From Acidobacteriaceae bacterium (GTDB taxonomy: Bacteria > Acidobacteriota > Terriglobia > Terriglobales > Acidobacteriaceae): a stretch of DNA of 40,807 nt. How positions within the stretch are numbered: position 1 is the first letter of the stretch; each line of letters starts with the position of its first letter. Below are positions 1-40,574 of the stretch, in pieces. The DNA lies in assembly GCA_003142015.1 (NCBI GenBank), contig PLOI01000063.1, positions 35,061 through 75,867 on the forward strand, given 5' to 3'. The notes below the pieces were generated by a model. It did no database searches, was not told the DNA's origin, and was given only the letters and a program-made list of their open reading frames with translations. The position numbers and the translations under genes are program-made.

Positions 1-779
1 GCCTGGAAGTTGCGCGACATGCTGAAGTAGTCCCACTTCTCAAGTGCATCGAGAGTTTTGTGGTCCATCTTCACCGCATCGTCGTAGGTGTGGTAGTGCG
101 ACAGATCTGAACTGGCCAGCACCAGTGTTTCGCCGCCTTTGCCGTCGGCCTTGATCAGCTTCGTCAGCGCCATCCCCAGCGCGCGGCTGCTCTCGTAGCT
201 CTGGTCTCCCATGACGATGGGCACAAGCTCAAAATTTCCCAATACTTTTTGCAGCCACGGCAACTCCACCTCGATTGCGTGCTCGCCGCCTGCCGGTGTG
301 GGGTCGTGTCCGCGGCTGGAGAGTTGCATCGTCGAGCTCATCCTCACAAGCTGGCGCGCGAAGGCTTTGTCCACCGGCACAGTTCCTAGCGGCGTTGCGT
401 AAGCGTCGCCTTCATAAACGGAGGTGAAATCGAAGGCCTCGTAATGCGACGGCGCAATCACCACGACCCGCGCGTACTTGTGTCCCTTCAGCGCGGCGTA
501 GGTGTAGGCGGCCACGGGCCCGGAGTATTGATAGCCGGCGTGCGGCGCAACCACCGCGAAAATGTGATCGGTAACCGGCGGCCCGGTGACCTTCGCCAGC
601 AACTGGTCGATCATTGCTGAAAGTTCCTTTGCATCGGCGGGATAAAAACTGCCGGCGACAGCCGCTTGCCGCACCTTTGGCGTTGCGTCTGCAGGAGTGT
701 GCGTCAGCGGCGGAATCGCCATGAATGCGATCAGCGGAGCCGCCAGCCAAAAAGCGTTCGAGGCCAATACGATGTGCAT
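1..779 (-). CDS. MEMO-family protein (AmmeMemoRadiSam system protein B), 3' end outside window
   Basis: An open frame runs from an ATG at 779 to the window edge with no stop (about 259 codons visible), so the C-terminus is missing. Family motifs are clear: VAGSFYPAD near residue 38, APHAGYQYSG, IAPSHYEAFD, GGEHAIEVELPWLQ and SSDLSHYHTYDD. The conserved histidines correspond to the metal-binding pocket shared with class III extradiol (LigB-type) dioxygenases. The biochemical role of bacterial MEMO proteins is not established. Residues 1-30 are hydrophobic (LAAPLIAFMAI) and precede the family domain, which suggests a signal peptide or membrane anchor, although the n-region lacks positive charge. 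A GTG five codons upstream is an alternative start; a G-rich tract lies just before the ATG. The gene follows the radical SAM gene by 22 bases on the same strand. Confidence 0.9.
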   Translation of the reverse strand, partial: MHIVLASNAFWLAAPLIAFMAIPPLTHTPADATPKVRQAAVAGSFYPADAKELSAMIDQLLAKVTGPPVTDHIFAVVAPHAGYQYSGPVAAYTYAALKGHKYARVVVIAPSHYEAFDFTSVYEGDAYATPLGTVPVDKAFARQLVRMSSTMQLSSRGHDPTPAGGEHAIEVELPWLQKVLGNFELVPIVMGDQSYESSRALGMALTKLIKADGKGGETLVLASSDLSHYHTYDDAVKMDHKTLDALEKWDYFSMSRNFQ

Positions 780-801
780 ATGCGAACCCCCCACTACATT
801 C

Positions 802-1995
802 TCATGCGTGCCAGATGCCGGGAATCGGCTGTTGGCAAAACGGGCAACTGTTCTTGCGAATCAGCATCTGGCTCGCCGTAAATCCCACGCGTTCCACTAA
901 CATTTTGCGGCACTTGGGGCAATAAGTATTCTGCGCCGGATGTCCCGGTACATTGCCAATGTACACGTAATGCAACCCTTCCGCATCGGCAATCGCCTTG
1001 GCGCGTTCCAGCGTGGGCACCGGCGTGATGGGCAAATTCTTCAACAAGTACTCGGGATGAAACTGCGTGAAATGCAAAGGAACATCCGGGCCCAGGTTCG
1101 CCTTTACCCATTGCGCCAGTCCGCGAAATTCCTCATCGCTGTCGTTGAGCGTCGGCAGCACCAGGTAAACAATCTCCGTCCACTTGTTCATCTTGCGCAG
1201 CGTCACCAGCGAATTCAGCACCGGCTTCAATTGCCCAGTGACCACCTGGCGATAGTACGACTCGGAGAAGGATTTCAGATCGATCTTGACGGCGTCCATC
1301 TTGCCGTACGCCGCCTTCAATGCCTCCTCCTGCATGTAGCCGTTCGACACCACAATGCTGCGGATGCCGGCTTCATGGCCCGCATCGGCTGCATCCATCA
1401 AGAATTCGCTGAAGATCACCGGCTCGCTGTAGGTGTATGCAATCGTTGGGCAGTTATATTGCTTCGCAATTTCCGCCACGCGCTGCGGCGGAATATACTC
1501 GGCCGGAATCTGTTCGGGACGCGACTGCGAAATGTCCCAGTTCTGGCAAAACTTGCAGTTGACGTTGCAGCCTGCCGTGGCTAGCGAGAAGGCAATCGAC
1601 CCCGGCAGATAGTGGAAGAGCGGCTTCTTCTCCACGGGATCAACATGCGCCGCGCATACCCGCGAGTGCACCAGCGTGTAATAAACGCCGCCGCGATTCT
1701 CGCGCACGCCGCAGTAGCCGCGTTCCTTGTCGCCCACCGTACATTCGCGCGGGCACAGCTTGCACTTGATCTTGCGCTCCGCAAGCTTCTGGTAAAACTT
1801 TGCTTCCACGATAAAGCGCGCATCGTCTTGCGTGCCGGAAGCCGCGCCGGATCCAATTCCGGCGGCCGGTTGCGCAACGCCGTTTATCCCCAGCGCCGCG
1901 CCCGACGCCAAAGCGCATTTCAGGAACGAGCGGCGATCGAGCGGGCTGCCCGCCTGGTTTCTCGCTATCTCCTGCACTTCTAATCCGCACAACAT
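802..1995 (-). CDS. AmmeMemoRadiSam system radical SAM enzyme with twin-arginine signal
   Basis: The protein (397 aa) has the radical SAM cluster motif CNVNCKFC (C143, C147, C150), which binds a 4Fe-4S cluster for SAM cleavage. It is preceded by a cysteine-rich stretch (KCKLCPRECTVG, YCGVRE) typical of this family, which is related to pyruvate-formate-lyase activases. Two CPxC pairs near the C-terminus (YCPKC, CPFC) may bind zinc or an extra cluster. Residues 21-40 read DRRSFLKCALASGAALG, a twin-arginine signal. I chose the ATG at 1995 because AAAGG lies 6 nt upstream; an upstream TTG at 2028 has no better support. The natural substrate of this enzyme class is unknown. It sits between a DUF362 gene (42 bases upstream) and the MEMO gene (22 bases downstream), so the three are probably one transcript. 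A Tat-exported radical SAM enzyme is odd because such enzymes are usually cytoplasmic and oxygen-sensitive. Confidence 0.92.
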   Translation of the reverse strand: MLCGLEVQEIARNQAGSPLDRRSFLKCALASGAALGINGVAQPAAGIGSGAASGTQDDARFIVEAKFYQKLAERKIKCKLCPRECTVGDKERGYCGVRENRGGVYYTLVHSRVCAAHVDPVEKKPLFHYLPGSIAFSLATAGCNVNCKFCQNWDISQSRPEQIPAEYIPPQRVAEIAKQYNCPTIAYTYSEPVIFSEFLMDAADAGHEAGIRSIVVSNGYMQEEALKAAYGKMDAVKIDLKSFSESYYRQVVTGQLKPVLNSLVTLRKMNKWTEIVYLVLPTLNDSDEEFRGLAQWVKANLGPDVPLHFTQFHPEYLLKNLPITPVPTLERAKAIADAEGLHYVYIGNVPGHPAQNTYCPKCRKMLVERVGFTASQMLIRKNSCPFCQQPIPGIWHA

Positions 1996-2037
1996 ATTGA
2001 ACCTTTCCGCAACGCTTCGGGTCCGCAAGTCTTTCAG

Positions 2038-3063
2038 CTACACCTCGACGAGTGCAATCCTTTTCGGGTCGTTCGTGCCCAGCTTGTGTTCGCCATCGGC
2101 CGCGGTCGCAATGTATCGCGGCGCGCGCTTCTTGGCCTCCAACGTCTTCAATCCCTTTTCGGCGCGCTTGCGCTCGATCATCTGCCAGCCCGTATGATCC
2201 AGCGCAACCGGATCCTGAGAAACGAGCAGGGAATTGGCGTTCCAGCAGTGTTCCGGTTTGTAACCCGGGCCGCCCTCGTAGATTGCGGTCGTCGCGTCGC
2301 AAATGGTCAGCCGCATCCTGCTTCGTATCTCCGGCAGCATGTTCAGATCAGCGACGTAGGGATTGCACCCGTCGGGATGATACTTGTTGGGGTTGTGAAT
2401 AACGCCGTACATATTCTTGAGAGCGATGGTTACGCCGGCGCCGTCGTGGTCTTTCAGCACGGGAACATTGATAAGCACGCCGGAGCGTTGCGTGAGTATC
2501 TTTGACAAGCAACTGCCCACGCTGCCCCAGGCGGCCAAATTCTCCTCATAGCCCACGCGGTCGGTCCCGTAACATTGCACGCGCTCTCCGCCCATCGCAA
2601 GATGAAAACCGGCGCGCTCCAGTTCGTTGCTGTCGCGGTCCCAAACCACAATGTCGCTCGCCCTGACGCCGGCCTCTTGCAATCGTTTGCAAATGGCCGC
2701 AACAAGCAGAACATTTGTCGAAATTCCGCGGCCTCCCAGCGTATTCACCTTCAGGCTCACCGTTTCGCTCGGACGGACCAGCGTTCTCCATATTTCCGCC
2801 GGATGATCGTGGCCGGCGAGAGCCTGCATGGCGCGATCCAGCAGAGCCAACATCCGGCCCGAATCCACCTTGGAGTCTGTGCCGCGCAGCAACTCGTCGC
2901 GCGCCACCACGACCCTGGACTTCGCGCCCACGGCTCCCGGTTTTGCCGCAACAGGCTCCGCTGCTGCCAGCGCTCCCGCCCCGCCGCTCGCGCACAACAA
3001 CGCAGCTCCGGCGAAAGATTGCCTGAGAAAATCTCTTCGGCTGCCGTTGCGCATAGTCTTCAT
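2038..3063 (-). CDS. DUF362 domain protein with twin-arginine signal
   Basis: The protein is 341 aa. The N-terminus contains SRRDFLRQSFAGAALLCASG, a twin-arginine signal, so it is probably exported folded, perhaps with a cofactor. The body matches DUF362 proteins: VSLKVNTLGGRGISTN, a conserved VPVLKDHDGAGVTIALKN segment, and a late SQDPVALDHTGW motif. DUF362 proteins are often found beside iron-sulfur or radical SAM proteins, but their reaction is unknown. No ferredoxin CxxCxxC motifs are visible here, unlike some longer family members. It is the first gene of the unit with the radical SAM and MEMO genes, which makes a shared, possibly periplasmic, process likely (inference). Confidence 0.85.
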   Translation of the reverse strand: MKTMRNGSRRDFLRQSFAGAALLCASGGAGALAAAEPVAAKPGAVGAKSRVVVARDELLRGTDSKVDSGRMLALLDRAMQALAGHDHPAEIWRTLVRPSETVSLKVNTLGGRGISTNVLLVAAICKRLQEAGVRASDIVVWDRDSNELERAGFHLAMGGERVQCYGTDRVGYEENLAAWGSVGSCLSKILTQRSGVLINVPVLKDHDGAGVTIALKNMYGVIHNPNKYHPDGCNPYVADLNMLPEIRSRMRLTICDATTAIYEGGPGYKPEHCWNANSLLVSQDPVALDHTGWQMIERKRAEKGLKTLEAKKRAPRYIATAADGEHKLGTNDPKRIALVEV

Positions 3064-3360: not shown

Positions 3361-5484
3361 TCATCTGGCAGGCGGCGCTTCTGACAGCCGGAAGGCGCCT
3401 ATGGGCGGCAGGTCCTTTCCGTCCTGCCAGTCGCGAATCGCTTCCAGGAACAAGTCGCTGCGCTGCTGCCACTTCTGGATCGCCAGGTCGTAGCGGACGG
3501 TGACATTTTTCAACCAATAAGGCCGGTTCTCGCTGAGCCAGACCTGGCTGTATTCTCCCTCTGCGGCGGAGTATGCATCGCGGAGATCCTGGCAACGGCC
3601 AAACATGCTGCTGATCTCATCCAGAATGTTCTGGGTTTCCACGTGGCGCGCCTCGTCGTGCTGTTGAGCCACCGCCTGGGCATACGTCTCAACAATCTCT
3701 TGGGCAAGCTGGAACTTCATGCCGATCAGATCCAGTCGGCGCGCGCCCAGGTCCATGGCGGCGAGAGCATCGCCCTCTTTCAGACGAGGATTGACGCTGC
3801 GCGCCTGGGCCAGCAACACGATGGCCTGTTCGGCGTGCCGGCGCAGTTCCGGCGCGACGGGCAACAGCTTGGCCGATGCGGCCTGGCCTTGCGCGCTCCA
3901 TGGATCGAGCCAGAAGAGTTCGTCGCTGGTCAATCCGCTCTTGGCTTTGGCCAGGGCAGCGTGCGCGGCCATCAGCTCCTTTTCAGCATCATTCACCTTG
4001 CCGCTCGTGTCGCCGTGGAAGAGTTGCCCCCATGCATCCTGATAAGGAGCGATCGGGCTTTCGCCCGGTTGCCATGCCGCAGCCGCGCCAAACATCAGGC
4101 TATACCAGTCTTCGTTGAACAGGCCTTCGCCGTCGTCGTTCCAGACGGTGGTCAAAGCGCCGGTCGAGCCTAGCCGCTGGCCGTCGCGGATAAAGCCCTG
4201 AATGTTGCCGAAGGCTGTCTCTGCTATGGGATAAACCTCTTTCCAGTTGGCGTCGCCGGGAGAGACCCAGGTCTCGATGCCGGCCTTGGCAAAGGGCTCG
4301 ATCATCTTGTCGAATCCCTTGGTATCCCAATAATTCCAGGGCACGGCGATCATGTCCTTGGGCAGGCTGGCCACGGCTTTGGGATCGGTCCCGCCAATGT
4401 CGCCCCAGAAAATCAGGCGGCGATTGAGCGGCGCCAGCGCTTCGTGAATCTGCTTGAGAAAATCCACGTACACTGGCCCATAGCCTTGCGCCTGCACCTG
4501 AGGCCGGGTGCGTCCTACGCCCAGGTCGAAGGTCTCATCGGCTCCTATATGGATAAACGGCGAGGGAAACTCCGCGGCCACTTGCGTGAACCAATCCTTG
4601 ATGAGCGGCAGCGAACCCGCCTGCCCCGGCGCCAGCACGTGGCCATGCGGCGTCTCGGCGACACCCTGGTAAAGTTCGTACTTCAGAACATGATGCAGAT
4701 GACCGAACGCCTCCTGTTCGGGGACGACCGTGATGTGAAGCTGGCGTGCAACGCTGACCAGCTCGGCTGCTTCCGATGGACTCAGCGCGCCGCCTGGGGG
4801 CGCAGCCAGCGGTTGATCGGGATACAGCAGCGTGTGTTCGATGTAGGGCGAATAGACGTTGATCTTGTACGCGGCGAAGACGCGTAATTGATGCTTCATG
4901 AACTCCAGCGTGGGAAAAGGGCCACGGGAGAGGTCGTCGTCAATGCCGCGGTACTTCATCGCCGGCCAGTCGCGCACCGTGCCCGTGGGCAGCGCCGGCT
5001 TGCCGTCAGGGAGCGGAAGCATCTGCTTGAGCGTCTGCACCCCGTAGAAAACTCCCGAGCCTGAGGCGGCAACGACGAAAGCCTCGCGGGGCTCGATCAC
5101 CAGCACATATCCCTCCTCCTGCATCGGCGCATCGAAGGCCAGTTTGCGCCGGGCGAGCAAGGCTTTACCCTCCGCTGAGCCGGCGCGCAGCAAAACGATT
5201 CGGAAATCAGAGTTTTCTGCTCCGGCCTTGGCGTGAGCCGCCTGCTTGAGCGCCTCTTCCAGGTCGCGGGCGGCAAACTCGTCCTCCGCATCGTGGCCGG
5301 GTACACTCACCGTTACCGTCTCCGGCACAGGAGTCTCGCCGTCAAAGTGCGCTTCGCGAGGAGCCGGTAGCAGCCGAATCTGGCTTGACGACAGGACAGG
5401 GAACACAAACAGCAAGGCGGCCACGCCTCCGATTGCGGCTCGTGACAGCTGCGTAAAGGCACATTTTGCATAAAATTTCGTCAT
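3361..5484 (-). CDS. Glycoside hydrolase family 20 beta-N-acetylhexosaminidase, secreted
   Basis: The protein (707 aa) has the GH20 layout: a signal peptide (AAIGGVAALLFVFPVLSSSQ), an N-terminal alpha/beta domain (about residues 35-175), then the catalytic barrel beginning MKYRGIDDDLSRGPFPTLEFMKHQLRVF. The catalytic Asp-Glu pair is D316-E317 in HIGADETFDLG; the aspartate orients the substrate acetamido group for neighbouring-group catalysis. The C-terminal 250 residues are helical. It should release terminal GlcNAc or GalNAc from chitin, peptidoglycan or glycan fragments. The ATG at 5484 is preferred over the one at 5535: GAGGTGG lies 7 nt upstream, and the predicted transcription start (about 5534) falls downstream of the longer start. 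It is divergent from a sugar transporter, fitting amino-sugar uptake. Confidence 0.9.
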   Translation of the reverse strand: MTKFYAKCAFTQLSRAAIGGVAALLFVFPVLSSSQIRLLPAPREAHFDGETPVPETVTVSVPGHDAEDEFAARDLEEALKQAAHAKAGAENSDFRIVLLRAGSAEGKALLARRKLAFDAPMQEEGYVLVIEPREAFVVAASGSGVFYGVQTLKQMLPLPDGKPALPTGTVRDWPAMKYRGIDDDLSRGPFPTLEFMKHQLRVFAAYKINVYSPYIEHTLLYPDQPLAAPPGGALSPSEAAELVSVARQLHITVVPEQEAFGHLHHVLKYELYQGVAETPHGHVLAPGQAGSLPLIKDWFTQVAAEFPSPFIHIGADETFDLGVGRTRPQVQAQGYGPVYVDFLKQIHEALAPLNRRLIFWGDIGGTDPKAVASLPKDMIAVPWNYWDTKGFDKMIEPFAKAGIETWVSPGDANWKEVYPIAETAFGNIQGFIRDGQRLGSTGALTTVWNDDGEGLFNEDWYSLMFGAAAAWQPGESPIAPYQDAWGQLFHGDTSGKVNDAEKELMAAHAALAKAKSGLTSDELFWLDPWSAQGQAASAKLLPVAPELRRHAEQAIVLLAQARSVNPRLKEGDALAAMDLGARRLDLIGMKFQLAQEIVETYAQAVAQQHDEARHVETQNILDEISSMFGRCQDLRDAYSAAEGEYSQVWLSENRPYWLKNVTVRYDLAIQKWQQRSDLFLEAIRDWQDGKDLPPIGAFRLSEAPPAR

Positions 5485-5540
5485 TTTAACCACCTTCAGC
5501 TCAAGAAACTGAGCATGTTCTTCCGATTTGGTCATTGTAG

Positions 5541-5676: not shown

Positions 5677-7497
5677 ATGACGATGGCTGAAGACGGCTCC
5701 AGGAATATGCCTTTACCGATTGATGCCGCCAAGCGCGGCTACAACCTTTTTCTTCTTGTAGTTGCGGGGCTGGGCGGCCTCCTCTACGGCATGGACATCG
5801 GCCTCATCGGCGGCGCGCTGCCCTATCTGCAAGCCACCTCGCCGCTCACCGCCGCTCAGCTTTCCATCGTGGTGGCTGCGGTGCTGCTGGGCGCGGTCTT
5901 CTCTACGATGTTTGCCGGCATGCTGGCCGACTGGATGGGCCGCAAACCGTTGATGATCCTCAGCGGCCTCACGTTTGTTGTCAGCATTCCCATGATCGCC
6001 CTTTCGCACGGCTACTCGCCTTTGCTTGTCGGGCGTCTGCTCGAGGGCGTCAGCGCCGGACTCATTGGCGTCGTCGTTCCCCTCTATCTGGCTGAGTGCC
6101 TGGCGGCGTCGGACCGCGGCAAGGGAACAGGCGTCTTTCAGTGGCTGCCCACCTCGTCCATGGTCTTCGCGGCGCTGCTGGGCATCTACTTCAGTTATCA
6201 CGTTGCGGCCGTGGCTAAAACCGGCGACGCCTCGGCCTTGTTCGCCTACAAGGATCAGGCGTGGCGCCATCTCTTCTGGGTTTCGCTCCCTCCCGGCATC
6301 CTCTTTATCCTCGGCTGCCTGCTGGTCACCGAGTCGCCGCGCTGGCTCTTCAAGCGCGGAAAAAAGCAACAGGCCCATGCCGCCCTGCTGCGCTCTCGCA
6401 CCGAACAGCAAGCCGCCGTCGAGCTCGAAGAGATGGAAGAATCTCAGCGCAAAGCCTCTACGCTCTCCTCTTCCGGCAAAAAGATTCAGGACTCGCTCTT
6501 GCGCCGCAAATATGTGGTTCCGTTCCTGCTCGCCTGCATCATTCTCTTCTGCAATACGGCCACAGGCGTCAACTCGCTCATCGGCTATAACACCAGCATC
6601 CTGCTGCAAGGCGGTCTCTCCGACCTTCACGCCCACTGGGGCTATGTCGTTTTCACCTCGATGAACTTCCTGCTGACCATAGTGGGCATGGCGCTGGTCG
6701 ACCGCAAGGGCCGCAAGTTTCTGCTCATCCTTGGCACCAGCGGCATCATCGTCTCGATGGTGGGCGTGGGCATTCTCTTCCTGCGCACTGAAAAAGTCAG
6801 CGTGGACGCGCGCACCCAGGTGCAGGCCATGATTTCTCCCAGCCAGGAACTAACGCTGCCCTTCAATCGCGATGAAGCCGCCCAACTGCTAGCCGCGCAG
6901 GGCGATGCAGGCAAGCGCATTGACGCCGGCCGCGCATCCCTGGCCATTATCTATTCCTATGGCGATTTCACCGCCGCCACCAGCTTTGTGCGCTCCGACG
7001 ACCCCGCCGCCCGGCCTATCGAAATCACGCGCGCCAGTTGCGTGCCCGCCAATAAGGTTCTGGCCCTCTTCAAGAATCCCCTTGGCAATCTGGACGCCGC
7101 GCAAACCGCGCCGCTCAAAATCGAGAAAGCCCTTGTCGGCCAGGTGCCTGACTCGAGCCACGGCTGGCTGGTTGCCCTGGGCCTCTTTCTGTTCATGGCC
7201 TTCTATGCGGTCGGTCCCGGCGTCTGCGTCTGGCTGGCCCTCTCCGAGCTGATGCCCACGCGCATCCGCTCCAACGGCATGAGCATCGCGCTGGTCATCA
7301 ACCAGTTGGTTTCCACCACCCTGGCCGGCATCTTCCTGCCCTTCGTCAGCAAAAACGGCTACTCGTCCATGTTCTTTCTCTTCGCCGGGTTCACGGTGGT
7401 CTACTTCATCGTCGCGGCCTTCTTCTTGCCCGAGACCAAAGGCAAAACCCTGGAAGAAATCGAGGCGCATTTCGAGGGGAGCGCGGCCTTCGATTGA
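5677..7497 (+). CDS. Sugar-porter family MFS transporter with a large C-terminal-half loop
   Basis: The protein is 606 aa with about 12 membrane segments. Sugar-porter hallmarks are visible: GLGGLLYGMDIGLIGGALPYL in TM1, LADWMGRKPLM after TM2, RLLEGVSAGLIGVVVPLYLAE in TM4, TESPRWLFKRGK after TM6, and PETKGKTLEEIEAHF at the C-terminus. It probably imports a sugar by proton symport across the inner membrane. The family is normally about 450-500 aa; here roughly residues 370-493, between TM9 and TM10, form a hydrophilic insert that should face the periplasm. Divergence from the GH20 hexosaminidase suggests that an amino sugar such as GlcNAc is the substrate (inference). An ATG two codons downstream is an equally possible start. 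Confidence 0.9.
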   Translation: MTMAEDGSRNMPLPIDAAKRGYNLFLLVVAGLGGLLYGMDIGLIGGALPYLQATSPLTAAQLSIVVAAVLLGAVFSTMFAGMLADWMGRKPLMILSGLTFVVSIPMIALSHGYSPLLVGRLLEGVSAGLIGVVVPLYLAECLAASDRGKGTGVFQWLPTSSMVFAALLGIYFSYHVAAVAKTGDASALFAYKDQAWRHLFWVSLPPGILFILGCLLVTESPRWLFKRGKKQQAHAALLRSRTEQQAAVELEEMEESQRKASTLSSSGKKIQDSLLRRKYVVPFLLACIILFCNTATGVNSLIGYNTSILLQGGLSDLHAHWGYVVFTSMNFLLTIVGMALVDRKGRKFLLILGTSGIIVSMVGVGILFLRTEKVSVDARTQVQAMISPSQELTLPFNRDEAAQLLAAQGDAGKRIDAGRASLAIIYSYGDFTAATSFVRSDDPAARPIEITRASCVPANKVLALFKNPLGNLDAAQTAPLKIEKALVGQVPDSSHGWLVALGLFLFMAFYAVGPGVCVWLALSELMPTRIRSNGMSIALVINQLVSTTLAGIFLPFVSKNGYSSMFFLFAGFTVVYFIVAAFFLPETKGKTLEEIEAHFEGSAAFD

Positions 7498-37608: not shown

Positions 37609-38523
37609 ATGGCGGCGTATGCGCAATCGCATTTACCGGAGACCGGAGACGCGGAGAGTGGACCGAATCGCGCGGCAGACACGGCGCTGAAACTGCACGC
37701 GCTGGAAGCTCGCCTGGGGCTGTTAGGCAGCCTGATGGTGGCATACTCCGGCGGCGTGGACTCTGCGTTTCTGGCGGCCACGGCGCATCGAGTTCTGGGC
37801 AGCCGCATGATTGCCGTTCTGGCAGATTCACCCAGCCTGGCCCGCCGCGACTTCGAGCAGGCCTGCGAATTTGCGCGCGCCCAAGGGATTCCGCTGCGCA
37901 TCATCGCAACCGAAGAATTGAGCCGGCCGGAGTATCAGCGCAACGACGCTCATCGCTGTTTTCATTGCAAGGACGAGCTCTTCGGCGCCATGGAGACGCT
38001 GGGTGCAAGCCTGGGCTTCGAGAACATCGCCTATGGGATGAACGTCGATGACACGAGGGATTTCCGTCCCGGGCAACGCGCGGCCGAGGAACACGCGGTG
38101 TTGGCGCCGCTGGCCGAGGCCGGACTCACAAAAATCGAAATACGTGCGCTGGCCAAGGCGGCCGGCTATTCGCTGTGGGACCGGCCGGCAGCGCCGTGCC
38201 TGTCTTCGCGCGTTGAATATGGCCGCGCCGTGACCCCCGAGATCCTCGCCCAAGTAGAGAAGGCCGAAGAGAGCTTGCGGCAGTTGGGCTTTCGCGAGTT
38301 GCGCGTTCGCCATCATGGTGAACTTGCCCGCGTGGAGATTGCGCGAGCCGAGTTGCCGAGCGCCCTCACGATGGAGATGCTCGACGCTATTACCGCCGCT
38401 CTCAAGTTGGCCGGCTTCCAGTATGTGACGCTTGATTGCGCCGGTTTTCGCTCCGGGGCGATGAACGAGGTTCTTGGGAGCACAATTCTGTCCGTGGATG
38501 TGCTGGCCAAGCGCAGCGCATAG
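37609..38523 (+). CDS. larE: LarE, ATP-dependent sacrificial sulfur transferase
   Basis: The 304-aa protein has the PP-loop SGGVDS (47-52) that binds ATP and a C-terminal domain with the conserved PAAPCLSSR segment. C197 in it corresponds to the cysteine that LarE sacrifices to give its sulfur, being converted to dehydroalanine (known for Lactobacillus plantarum LarE C176). It converts the biscarboxylated nicotinic acid nucleotide into the thiolated precursor of the nickel-pincer nucleotide. It leads the larE-larC-larB run. Its start seems leaderless. Confidence 0.93.
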   Translation: MAAYAQSHLPETGDAESGPNRAADTALKLHALEARLGLLGSLMVAYSGGVDSAFLAATAHRVLGSRMIAVLADSPSLARRDFEQACEFARAQGIPLRIIATEELSRPEYQRNDAHRCFHCKDELFGAMETLGASLGFENIAYGMNVDDTRDFRPGQRAAEEHAVLAPLAEAGLTKIEIRALAKAAGYSLWDRPAAPCLSSRVEYGRAVTPEILAQVEKAEESLRQLGFRELRVRHHGELARVEIARAELPSALTMEMLDAITAALKLAGFQYVTLDCAGFRSGAMNEVLGSTILSVDVLAKRSA

Positions 38524-38532
38524 CAGACAGTT

Positions 38533-38547
38533 TAGAATCACCTTGCG
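38533..38547 (+). promoter_or_regulatory. -10-like element directly before larC
   Basis: TAGAAT (38533-38538) lies 9 nt before the larC ATG and the gap has no Shine-Dalgarno, the same layout as before the DeoR gene. It may be an internal promoter making a nearly leaderless larC transcript. Confidence 0.4.
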
Positions 38548-39828
38548 ATGCGTATTGGTTATCTGGAGTGCTTTTCCGGCATCAGCGGCGACATGCTGCT
38601 GGGAGCCTTGGTGGATGCGGGCGTCTCCTTCGCTTGCCTGGCGGAGACAGCGGCTGCGCTGAACGTTGGGGCGCGGCTGGAGATGCGCAAGGTGAACCGT
38701 GGCGGCCTGGCCGCAATCAAGGTTGACGTGATTACGCCCGACACCTTGGCCGTTGAGCCGGGACACTCTCACCAGGATCATCCGAAGCACGTACATCACG
38801 AGCATGAGCCGCACGCGCACACTGCGCACGCCCCTCACCGCTCTTTGTCGGCGATTCTCGAAATCATTCGTTCCGCGCCGCTCTCGGAAGCGGTAAAGCA
38901 GCGTTCGATACGCGCCTTCCAACTGCTGGGCGAGGCGGAAGCCGCCATCCATTCTGTTCCCATTGAAGAGGTGCATTTCCACGAGGTAGGCGCGGTGGAC
39001 ACCATTGTTGATATCGTCTGCGCCGCCGCGGGCGCAGAGGCGCTGGGCCGAGAAATGGGTGTGGACCGCTGGGTTTCGTCGCCGCTCAACGTGGGCAGCG
39101 GAACTGTGGTTTGCCAGCACGGCACATTGCCGGTTCCCGCACCGGCCACGCTGGCTTTGCTGGGTGATGCGCCGATCTACGCGGCGGGTGAGCCGATGGA
39201 GCGCGTGACTCCGACCGGAGCGGTGCTGCTGCGCATGCTTGAGGTGCAGTACGCAAAGCTGCCTGCCATGCGTGTGCTGAAAACCGGTTACGGCGCGGGC
39301 GGGCGCGAGACAGCAGGGCAGCCCAACCTGCTGCGGTTGCTGGTGGGTGAAGAAGATACTGTTGTGACCTCCGAAGCCGAATCGATTGCAGTGATAGAGA
39401 CAGTCATTGACGATTGCAATCCACAGTTGCTGAGTTATGTGAGTGAGTTGCTGTTGGCTGCTGGCGCGTGGGACGTGTATCGCACAACGGTGCAGATGAA
39501 GAAAGGGCGCACAGGCGTGCAGATGACCGTTCTCTGCCGGCCGGATCTTGCGCCCGCGTTGCAGAATCTGCTTTTCCGCGAGACCACCACCATCGGCTTG
39601 CGCTGGAGGCTGGAGAACAAGGTCGCGCTGACGCGAGAGTTCGTTGAAGTCGAAACAAGTTGGGGCAAGGTGAGGATCAAAATTGCCCACTGGCCTGACG
39701 GCAGAATCGCGAACGCGGCGCCGGAGTATGAGGATTGCCGCCAGCTTGCCACTGTGCACTCGATCCCGCTCAAGCAGGTGATGGAAGAAGCGATGCGAGT
39801 TTACGCGCTCACGAAGGAGAAACGCTGA
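38548..39828 (+). CDS. larC: LarC, nickel-pincer nucleotide nickel chelatase
   Basis: The 426-aa protein starts RIGYLECFSGISGDMLLGALVDAG, the family N-terminus. It has a histidine-rich stretch at about residues 70-97 (HSHQDHPKHVHHEHEPHAH) suited to nickel storage or binding, and conserved IHSVPIEEVHFHEVGAVDTIVD and AVLLRMLEV regions. LarC inserts nickel into the pincer ligand using CTP. In L. plantarum it is made through a programmed frameshift from two reading frames; here it is one continuous frame. Its stop overlaps the larB start by one base (TGATG). Confidence 0.93.
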   Translation: MRIGYLECFSGISGDMLLGALVDAGVSFACLAETAAALNVGARLEMRKVNRGGLAAIKVDVITPDTLAVEPGHSHQDHPKHVHHEHEPHAHTAHAPHRSLSAILEIIRSAPLSEAVKQRSIRAFQLLGEAEAAIHSVPIEEVHFHEVGAVDTIVDIVCAAAGAEALGREMGVDRWVSSPLNVGSGTVVCQHGTLPVPAPATLALLGDAPIYAAGEPMERVTPTGAVLLRMLEVQYAKLPAMRVLKTGYGAGGRETAGQPNLLRLLVGEEDTVVTSEAESIAVIETVIDDCNPQLLSYVSELLLAAGAWDVYRTTVQMKKGRTGVQMTVLCRPDLAPALQNLLFRETTTIGLRWRLENKVALTREFVEVETSWGKVRIKIAHWPDGRIANAAPEYEDCRQLATVHSIPLKQVMEEAMRVYALTKEKR

Positions 39829-40574
39829 TGGACCGCGCATACATTGAATCCCTGCTCAACGAAGTACGCGAGGGCCGCACGGCGGTCAACGACGCGGTTG
39901 ACCGGCTGAAGGATCTGCCATTCGAAGACCTGGGCTTCGCCAAACTCGATCACCACCGCGCGCTGCGCACCGGGATGCCCGAAGTGATTTTTGCCGCCGG
40001 CAAGACCGCAACGCAGGTGGCAACAATCTTCACCCGCATGGCGCAGGCCGGAGGCAACGTGCTGGCCACACGCGCGACGCGCGAAATGTTCGAGGCCGTT
40101 CATGCTGTCGAGCCACGCGCCGAATTTCATGAGATGGCCCGCGCCGTTACGCTCACGCAAGCTGCGGCCGTTCCCGGCAAGGGAACGATTGCCGTGGTCT
40201 GTGCGGGCACTAGCGATTTGCCGGTAGCCGAAGAAGCCGTGGTGACCGCGCGCCTGATGGGCAATACGGTCGAGTTGATTGCCGACGTCGGAGTGGCCGG
40301 CATTCACCGGCTACTGGCGCAAAAAAATTCTCTACAAGCGGCGCGTGTGCTGATTGTTTGCGCCGGCATGGAAGGCGCGCTGCCCACCGTTGTCGGCGGA
40401 CTGGTGAACGCGCCGGTTCTGGCCGTGCCCACCAGCGTGGGATATGGCGCGTCGTTCGGCGGCATTGCGGCGCTGCTGGGAATGTTGAACACCTGCTCGC
40501 CCAACGTCTCTGTGGTCAACATCGACAACGGGTTCGGCGCCGCCTGCATTGCCTCGCTCATCAATCGGCTGTGA
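39828..40574 (+). CDS. larB: LarB, nickel-pincer cofactor biosynthesis carboxylase/hydrolase
   Basis: The ATG at 39828 shares a base with the larC stop and has GAAGGAG upstream. The 248-aa protein resembles PurE-type AIR carboxylases in its C-terminal half (CAGTSDLPVAEEAVVTARLMG, GVAGIHRLL, CAGMEGALPTVVGGL, PTSVGYGASFGGIAALLGML). LarB carboxylates nicotinic acid adenine dinucleotide at C5 and cleaves the phosphoanhydride bond, the first step in the cofactor route. It is the last of the three synthesis genes; larA, which uses the cofactor in lactate racemase, is not seen in the window. Confidence 0.94.
   Translation: MDRAYIESLLNEVREGRTAVNDAVDRLKDLPFEDLGFAKLDHHRALRTGMPEVIFAAGKTATQVATIFTRMAQAGGNVLATRATREMFEAVHAVEPRAEFHEMARAVTLTQAAAVPGKGTIAVVCAGTSDLPVAEEAVVTARLMGNTVELIADVGVAGIHRLLAQKNSLQAARVLIVCAGMEGALPTVVGGLVNAPVLAVPTSVGYGASFGGIAALLGMLNTCSPNVSVVNIDNGFGAACIASLINRL

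Follow-up and report, generated by a model that had tools for sequence, protein, structure and literature searches.

The window analysed here is a 40,807-nucleotide stretch of DNA from an Acidobacteriaceae bacterium (GCA_003142015.1, contig PLOI01000063.1; G000:C45:35061-75867 in our numbering). It opens with a minus-strand unit that encodes a DUF362 protein, a radical S-adenosylmethionine (SAM) enzyme, and a MEMO protein. The genome, which is ~88% complete, was also read leftward of the window as region L002, in which a position equals the window position + 10000. From the letters alone, the original prediction had singled out a DRRSFLK motif in the radical SAM enzyme, an SRRDFLRQ motif in DUF362 and a hydrophobic N-terminus in MEMO, and had suggested that every member of the unit is exported, the first two by twin-arginine translocation (Tat). 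All three features are indeed in the sequence, and the locus is laid out as follows (profile scores are in bits, with the cut-off after the semicolon):

2038-3063, minus strand: DUF362 protein of 341 amino acids, MKTMRNGSRRDFLRQSFAGAALLCASGGAGALAAA, with a Tat-like signal and a predicted LarA-like fold (PF04015, 76.5; 24; AlphaFold model and fold comparison).
3034-3039, minus strand: twin-arginine codons of the DUF362 signal (SRRDFLR); the arginine pair is invariant throughout the alignment (38/38: the window copy and 37 relatives chosen out of 56).
802-1995, minus strand: radical SAM enzyme of the AmmeMemoRadiSam type, best start ATG at 1995 (TIGR04337, 379.9; 220).
1930-1935, minus strand: twin-arginine codons of the radical SAM Tat-like signal (DRRSFLK), LDRRSFLKCALASGAALGING, from the sequence and the motif test.
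1546-1569, minus strand: CxxxCxxC, the catalytic 4Fe-4S cluster motif of the radical SAM enzyme (cysteines kept in 134/134 sequences of the exported branch described below).
1-779, minus strand: MEMO domain (AmmeMemoRadiSam protein B), start ATG at 779, running left into AMMECR1 (TIGR04336, 205.6; 26).
684-779, minus strand: hydrophobic Sec-like N-terminus of MEMO, MHIVLASNAFWLAAPLIAFMAIPPL, left boundary approximate, read from the sequence and from an equivalent hydrophobic region (h-region) in exported-branch MEMOs.
L002:9376-10779, minus strand: whole MEMO-AMMECR1 frame (AMMECR1, TIGR04335, 178.3; 99).

The radical SAM frame is open from 802 to 2028, and GGAAAGG, which resembles a ribosome-binding site, lies ahead of the ATG at 1995; the enzyme also scores 68.7 bits against PF04055 (cut-off 29.5). 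For MEMO, a GTG at 794 is an alternative start. Next to position 1, the MEMO-AMMECR1 frame is interrupted by an assembly gap of two Ns (L002:9999-10000), and relatives are ~40 residues longer at this point, hence part of the window's MEMO is missing from the assembly. The gene left of position 1 had been put forward as a place to look for AMMECR1 with a signal of its own: AMMECR1 is present there, ending at L002:9376, but it is fused to MEMO and shares MEMO's signal. Since TIGR04335, TIGR04336 and TIGR04337 all score above their cut-offs, the locus is an AmmeMemoRadiSam cassette plus DUF362. Profile searches found MEMO once and TIGR04337 once in this genome.

Relatives were drawn from the best 80 of 253 in a scan of species genomes, and 100 further regions were fetched; a TIGR04337 search of 396 Acidobacteriota genomes gave a match in 258, above the cut-off in 232. 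A FastTree phylogeny of 211 radical SAM domains showed three groups, from which we assigned the labels branch I (canonical, 43 rows), branch II (exported, 134 rows, or 129 once five duplicates were removed) and branch III (34 rows). The window's enzyme falls in branch II. With IQ-TREE and 123 rows, support was 100 for branch I, 95 for branch III and 91 for branch II without the long-branch row L139 (L139 and L177 are both long branches of unsure placement). Canonical and exported copies coexist in at least nine Acidobacteriota genomes (G064, G073, G098, G104, G121, G164, G231, G265, and G380), and of 14 Calditrichota regions retrieved as class II, 11 fell in branch II and 3 in branch III. Judged from the N-terminal sequences described next, AmmeMemoRadiSam has a conserved branch predicted to be exported, beside a canonical branch that carries no signals.

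Tat-like signals were scored with our own script, which looks for a twin-arginine motif followed by an uncharged hydrophobic stretch near the N-terminus. Its thresholds were loosened after inspection by eye, because stricter first settings missed L011, L130, L132, L138, L160, and others that bear the arginine pair, either on account of a charged residue within the hydrophobic stretch or because the domain boundary was set too far in. In its final form the test was positive for 119/129 radical SAM enzymes of the exported branch (window included), for 0/43 canonical enzymes, and for 1/34 of branch III, the lone positive (L202) being spurious by eye. Only 138 of 6400 shuffled branch II N-termini (2.2%) and 42 of 995 other open reading frames of the loci (4.2%) passed, and chance or composition can thus be rejected for the radical SAM signal. 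Among the ten branch II misses, L046 is truncated, four (L056, L127, L128, and L173) have the arginine pair by eye, and five (L043, L051, L061, L063, and L073) lack it. Within Calditrichota, a twin-arginine motif was seen by eye in 11/11 branch II enzymes and in 0/6 canonical ones. The Pfam TAT_signal family (PF10518, expectation value (E) <= 0.05) matched 12/34 exported radical SAM enzymes vs 0/34 canonical and branch III enzymes taken together. The n-regions of these signals, ahead of the hydrophobic stretch, are variable and sometimes long, with no single obvious cleavage site. TatC is encoded in the window's own genome (229.4 bits).

DUF362 carries a Tat-like signal in 60/88 sequences by the same script, and 25 of the 38 aligned DUF362 sequences match TIGR01409 (NCBIfam TAT_signal_seq; E <= 0.05). 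The 28 misses comprise two truncated sequences (L012 and L077), 16 from one lineage, nine with the arginine pair but an interrupted hydrophobic stretch after it, and one broken frame (L049). No PF10518 match was found for the window's DUF362. The lineage with unsignalled DUF362 comprises L121, L125-L128, L130-L132, L134, L135, L140, L141, L144, L154, L155, and L157; there, DUF362 adjoins the radical SAM gene, the membrane partner described below comes next, and MEMO is elsewhere in the genome.

The hydrophobic region of MEMO is found in 90/96 exported-branch copies and in 0/13 canonical ones. We also searched for MEMO throughout 22 genomes, 17 from a lineage in which the operon includes genes for the radical SAM enzyme and the membrane protein but none for MEMO, and 5 from Calditrichota and Latescibacterota. 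MEMO was present somewhere in all 22. Among the 30 loci returned, a Sec-like h-region occurred in 10/11 fused MEMO-AMMECR1 copies and in 0/19 single MEMO copies. Nearly all fused copies being signalled and no single copy being so, an exported form of MEMO appears to accompany the exported radical SAM branch even where the two are unlinked, beside an unsignalled MEMO. The suggestion that every member of the unit is exported thus describes a conserved trait of the branch, and homologues with the same neighbours have kept the signals. The further parts of the original prediction, by which the exported enzyme would carry out radical chemistry outside, work with MEMO and modify an envelope molecule, are more conjectural.

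The exported enzymes retain their active sites. CxxxCxxC and four N-terminal cysteines of the radical SAM enzyme are kept in 134/134 rows of branch II, four C-terminal cysteines in 133/134, and most other conserved positions of the canonical enzymes are kept as well; a glutamate at domain position 95 is invariant in branch II and not in branches I or III. Human MEMO binds iron through H49, H81, and C244, according to an excerpt of PMC11081632, and the matching positions (alignment to 7kq8) are conserved in 96/96, 96/96, and 92/93 exported-branch sequences, respectively. This conservation argues that the exported system is not a decaying copy.

When neighbouring genes were clustered, the commonest proved to encode a polytopic membrane protein that contains a spermidine-synthase-like domain. 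The window's genome has its own copy, tail to tail with MEMO-AMMECR1:

L002:7054-9381, plus strand: membrane partner.

This membrane partner was found in the fetched region of 87/129 exported loci, and in 66/84 where the flanks reach at least 3.9 kilobases (kb) on both sides; with the same flanks it was found in 0/11 canonical and 0/25 branch III loci (most canonical loci have a flank of only ~1.5 kb, which is uninformative on neighbours). In several lineages it is co-directional with the operon and directly beside it. Its architecture is seven predicted helices, the spermidine-synthase-like domain, and seven further helices, 14 in total, and a glycine-rich motif and acidic residues are conserved. 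The mean number of lysines and arginines per sequence is 19.0 in even loops and ends vs 3.7 in odd loops; even exceeds odd in 74/74 sequences, which predicts that the spermidine-synthase-like domain lies outside. Compared with membrane-fused spermidine synthases (NF037959 MFS_SpdSyn; PF01564), it scores above both cut-offs and differs in its two seven-helix sets flanking an outward-predicted domain (topology from the 74 sequences). It falls below the equivalog models for polyamine aminopropyltransferases (PRK03612, 175.7 bits, cut-off 472; PRK00811, 131.9 bits, cut-off 260).

Signals and partners also tend to disappear together. Among 54 close relatives, with the truncated L046 set aside, the Tat motif is lost in five loci (L043, L051, L061, L063, and L073). 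DUF362 is absent from 4/4 judgeable Tat-lost loci and present in 46/46 others, the membrane partner is absent from 5/5 and present in 37/43 others, and four of these five loci have a MEMO whose signal is weak or missing. The losses form two groups in the FastTree phylogeny and one group (support 82) in the IQ-TREE phylogeny, from which L063 was left out. Since the trees fit one or two losses, the joint loss is suggestive and does not amount to independent replication.

In one subclade of radical SAM enzymes, a CxxCH motif and then a further histidine come after the Tat-like signal and ahead of the catalytic domain in 8/8 tree members (L138, L160, L162, L163, L166, L171, L242, and L244); support for the subclade is 100 for the first six loci (FastTree) and 99 for all eight (IQ-TREE). 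L219, which was not placed on the tree, has the same insertion. An N-terminal CxxCH is absent from the window's enzyme and occurs in only six of the 211 rows, all in this one subclade. In the first six loci, MEMO-AMMECR1 and the membrane partner adjoin, and there is no DUF362. Covalent attachment of c-type heme takes place outside the cytoplasm, so that if CxxCH is a heme site in these proteins, the radical SAM enzyme must be outside.

A polyferredoxin resembling NapH/NapG was found in the fetched region of 18/129 exported loci and elsewhere in the window's own genome:

L237:1086-2774: own polyferredoxin (NapH, 89.5 bits, equivalog cut-off 234; NapG, 97.1 bits, cut-off 269; both below).

It is thus related to both models below their equivalog cut-offs, and it differs from NapH and NapG in being one fused protein and in its linkage to DUF362 and DUF6599-type genes. 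It contains an internal RRR and a hydrophobic stretch, and it heads a separate cluster (L237:1086-6468) together with a DUF6599-lipoprotein-like gene and three DUF362 genes, each with a twin-arginine start. It is plausible that the polyferredoxin conveys quinol electrons to the outer side, the route being our inference. A DUF6599 lipoprotein-like gene (L010:4210-4770 and relatives) also lies near 32/129 exported loci, in two orientations relative to the operon.

The AlphaFold model of DUF362 (mean predicted local distance difference test (pLDDT) score 80.3) is closest to LarA: the top 12 rows of the fold comparison have Z 12.9-14.8, the next row 4.9, and 11 of the 12 are LarA-type racemases, the other being a Thermotoga protein. 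LarA is longer than DUF362, and the Foldseek template modelling (TM) score is only 0.38-0.44 over the query (11 rows, E <= 0.001). A comparison of the DUF362 sequence with solved structures gave a single match, at E 0.97, which we took as chance. DUF362 and DUF2088 are placed in one Pfam clan, CL0471, in an excerpt of PMC11770544. A complete nickel-pincer cofactor cassette lies on the same contig:

37609-40574 of the window, plus strand: LarE-LarC-LarB.

The genome has one weak LarA match (G000:C47:3204-3650, 31.2 bits, cut-off 23.3). LarC occurs in 40/48 genomes with the exported branch, in 20/22 in which branch III alone was seen, and in 8/10 without a match; there is no association. No LarC match was found in G078 and G276, which have an exported locus with DUF362. 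A dependence of DUF362 on the nickel-pincer cofactor was therefore not adopted, LarC being equally common without the exported branch. Two further genes adjoin the operon in the window: 3361-5535 (minus strand), which we take to encode a family-20-type hexosaminidase-like protein, and 5677-7497 (plus strand), presumably encoding a sugar-transporter-like protein.

Branch III (L168, L170, L174-L176, and L178-L206) has no convincing export signal, and none of the partners of branch II was seen in its fetched regions; in L178, L183, and L206 a second, more distant radical SAM gene adjoins. In the canonical branch, L212:4235-6079 and L213:5073-6971 each join AMMECR1 and the radical SAM domain in one frame, MEMO being encoded by a gene of its own.

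The cassette itself is known (TIGR04335-TIGR04337), and the locus appears to be an exported form of it. Both have all three families above cut-off, the same catalytic cysteines and the same MEMO metal ligands. The form described here differs in the signals on every member, the MEMO-AMMECR1 fusion, DUF362, and the membrane spermidine-synthase-like partner, none of which was seen among 43 canonical loci, although flanks of at least 3.9 kb were available for just 11 of these. Memo-Ammecr1-radical SAM systems were described by Burroughs et al. 2019 (J Biol Chem 294:10211), as cited in an excerpt of PMC7159879. The radical SAM model (mean pLDDT 78.4) has as its nearest solved relative, by fold and by sequence profile, the pyruvate formate-lyase activating enzyme (3c8f and 8fo0), which is shorter and shares 18-19% identity and a TM-score of 0.47-0.48 over the query. 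Pyruvate formate-lyase activating enzyme is a cytoplasmic protein. The paper by Burroughs and colleagues reportedly distinguishes several Memo families with links to nucleotide-base and isoprenoid modification, and may already mention secreted Memo forms. The name AmmeMemoRadiSam occurs in five papers of the literature searched. Our phrase searches, whose coverage mostly excludes subscription papers, found no paper that calls a radical SAM enzyme periplasmic, exported, secreted, extracellular or extracytoplasmic, nor one that names a radical SAM lipoprotein. Among the matches listed, nothing was on point for radical SAM with Tat signal and periplasm or with twin-arginine and AMMECR1, nor for membrane spermidine synthase (10 of 988 matches for one query), and no paper was found that joins any two of AMMECR1, Memo-like, DUF362, TIGR04337, Memo family, and AmmeMemoSam.

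How, then, might such a system work? We propose that the radical SAM enzyme would fold and receive its iron-sulphur clusters in the cytoplasm and then be carried across the membrane by Tat. DUF362 would cross by its own Tat signal or, in the lineage where it has none, might be carried along by the radical SAM enzyme. Sec would take MEMO-AMMECR1 across to meet the radical SAM enzyme outside, and the 14-helix membrane protein would present its spermidine-synthase-like domain on the same outer side. There, the cluster might be reduced by quinol electrons through the NapH/NapG-like polyferredoxin or, in one subclade, through a c-type heme. S-adenosylmethionine would be supplied outside, with the membrane protein as candidate supplier or co-user. 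The enzyme may then abstract hydrogen, as does the pyruvate formate-lyase activating enzyme, from a substrate that MEMO-AMMECR1 and DUF362 handle. The candidates for this substrate are a membrane isoprenoid and a protein of the envelope.

Several observations weigh against this scheme. The supply of S-adenosylmethionine outside is its hardest step: we know of no S-adenosylmethionine outside the cytoplasm, and no transporter for it was identified. The best hint that it is there is that two domains of types that use S-adenosylmethionine both appear to face outward. As to the Tat signals, the window's radical SAM enzyme scores 19.8 bits against PF10518, below the cut-off of 22.7, and TIGR01409 matches at most 15 of the 34 aligned exported radical SAM enzymes, given that 25 of 50 families were shown for them and TIGR01409 was not one of these. 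DUF362 lacks a Tat-like signal in the 16 loci of one lineage, of which L154 appeared Sec-like in the stricter first scoring. The shuffle control for the MEMO h-region is poor (1542 of 4800 shuffles pass), hence the case for MEMO rests on the position of the h-region, the unsignalled canonical copies, and the comparison of fused with single copies. The n-region of the window's MEMO has no lysine or arginine, which many relatives do have; one fused MEMO-AMMECR1 (L277) has no signal, and L051 has lost the Tat motif yet keeps its MEMO signal. On its own, CxxCH may also form a metal knuckle, of which the radical SAM family has examples in its C-terminal CPxCH motifs, and the polyferredoxin lies near a minority of exported loci only. 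Taking these points into account, we consider it highly probable, from their N-termini and the conservation of these among relatives, that the proteins of the system are exported, and the exported system as a whole is the likely reading. Whether radical chemistry takes place outside is an evenly balanced question. A complete outside pathway, with S-adenosylmethionine probably arriving via the membrane protein, electrons via polyferredoxin or heme, and an envelope product handled by MEMO-AMMECR1 and the LarA-like DUF362, is proposed tentatively, with the balance tipped a little against it.

The main competing explanation is that the radical SAM enzyme acts once in the cytoplasm, on itself or on DUF362. 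Tat would export the complex once modified, and outside the enzyme would be no more than a structural or electron-carrying protein. The supply of S-adenosylmethionine would then pose no difficulty. Tat takes folded proteins, including, according to an excerpt of PMC10924467, heterodimers of which a single partner bears the signal; one lineage indeed has an unsignalled DUF362 adjoining the gene for a Tat-bearing radical SAM enzyme. On the other hand, MEMO-AMMECR1, with its Sec-like route, would not meet the enzyme inside, the domain of the membrane partner is predicted outside, and the heme-motif subclade would put an electron inlet on the enzyme outside. We therefore regard this explanation as unlikely, if still one to reckon with.

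Cytoplasmic action might also be retained if the signals were uncleaved anchors that hold the enzymes at the inner face of the membrane, and the variable, sometimes long n-regions and the want of a single obvious cleavage site would suit this. Yet it is the twin arginines that are conserved and not hydrophobicity alone, an exported N-terminal anchor would put the following domain outside, and the CxxCH subclade speaks against it too, which makes anchoring on the cytoplasmic side quite improbable. We give equally little credence to an exported radical SAM enzyme that is non-catalytic, an iron-sulphur electron carrier or a scaffold: this would agree with there being no known S-adenosylmethionine outside and with the NapG-like ferredoxins near some loci, but CxxxCxxC is kept in 134/134 sequences, along with most of the canonical conserved positions. 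Lastly, the N-terminal extensions could be untranslated upstream sequence mistaken for coding sequence, as the open frame reaches further upstream than the ATG. A ribosome-binding-like site ahead of the ATG at 1995, and a motif and hydrophobic stretch similarly placed in 119/129 relatives from Acidobacteriota, Calditrichota, and Latescibacterota vs 2.2% of shuffles, leave such a start-site artefact hardly credible.

Radical SAM enzymes are treated as cytoplasmic, their cluster being oxygen-sensitive and S-adenosylmethionine and reductant being inside. If the exported reading of this branch is true, it would break that cytoplasm-only assumption and imply that S-adenosylmethionine and low-potential electrons are available outside. 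The function of MEMO and AMMECR1, both of which have human relatives, would be narrowed to a compartment where far fewer substrates are possible. Genomes with both an exported and a canonical copy would offer a natural comparison, and the compartment and the partners of an unsolved system would become testable.

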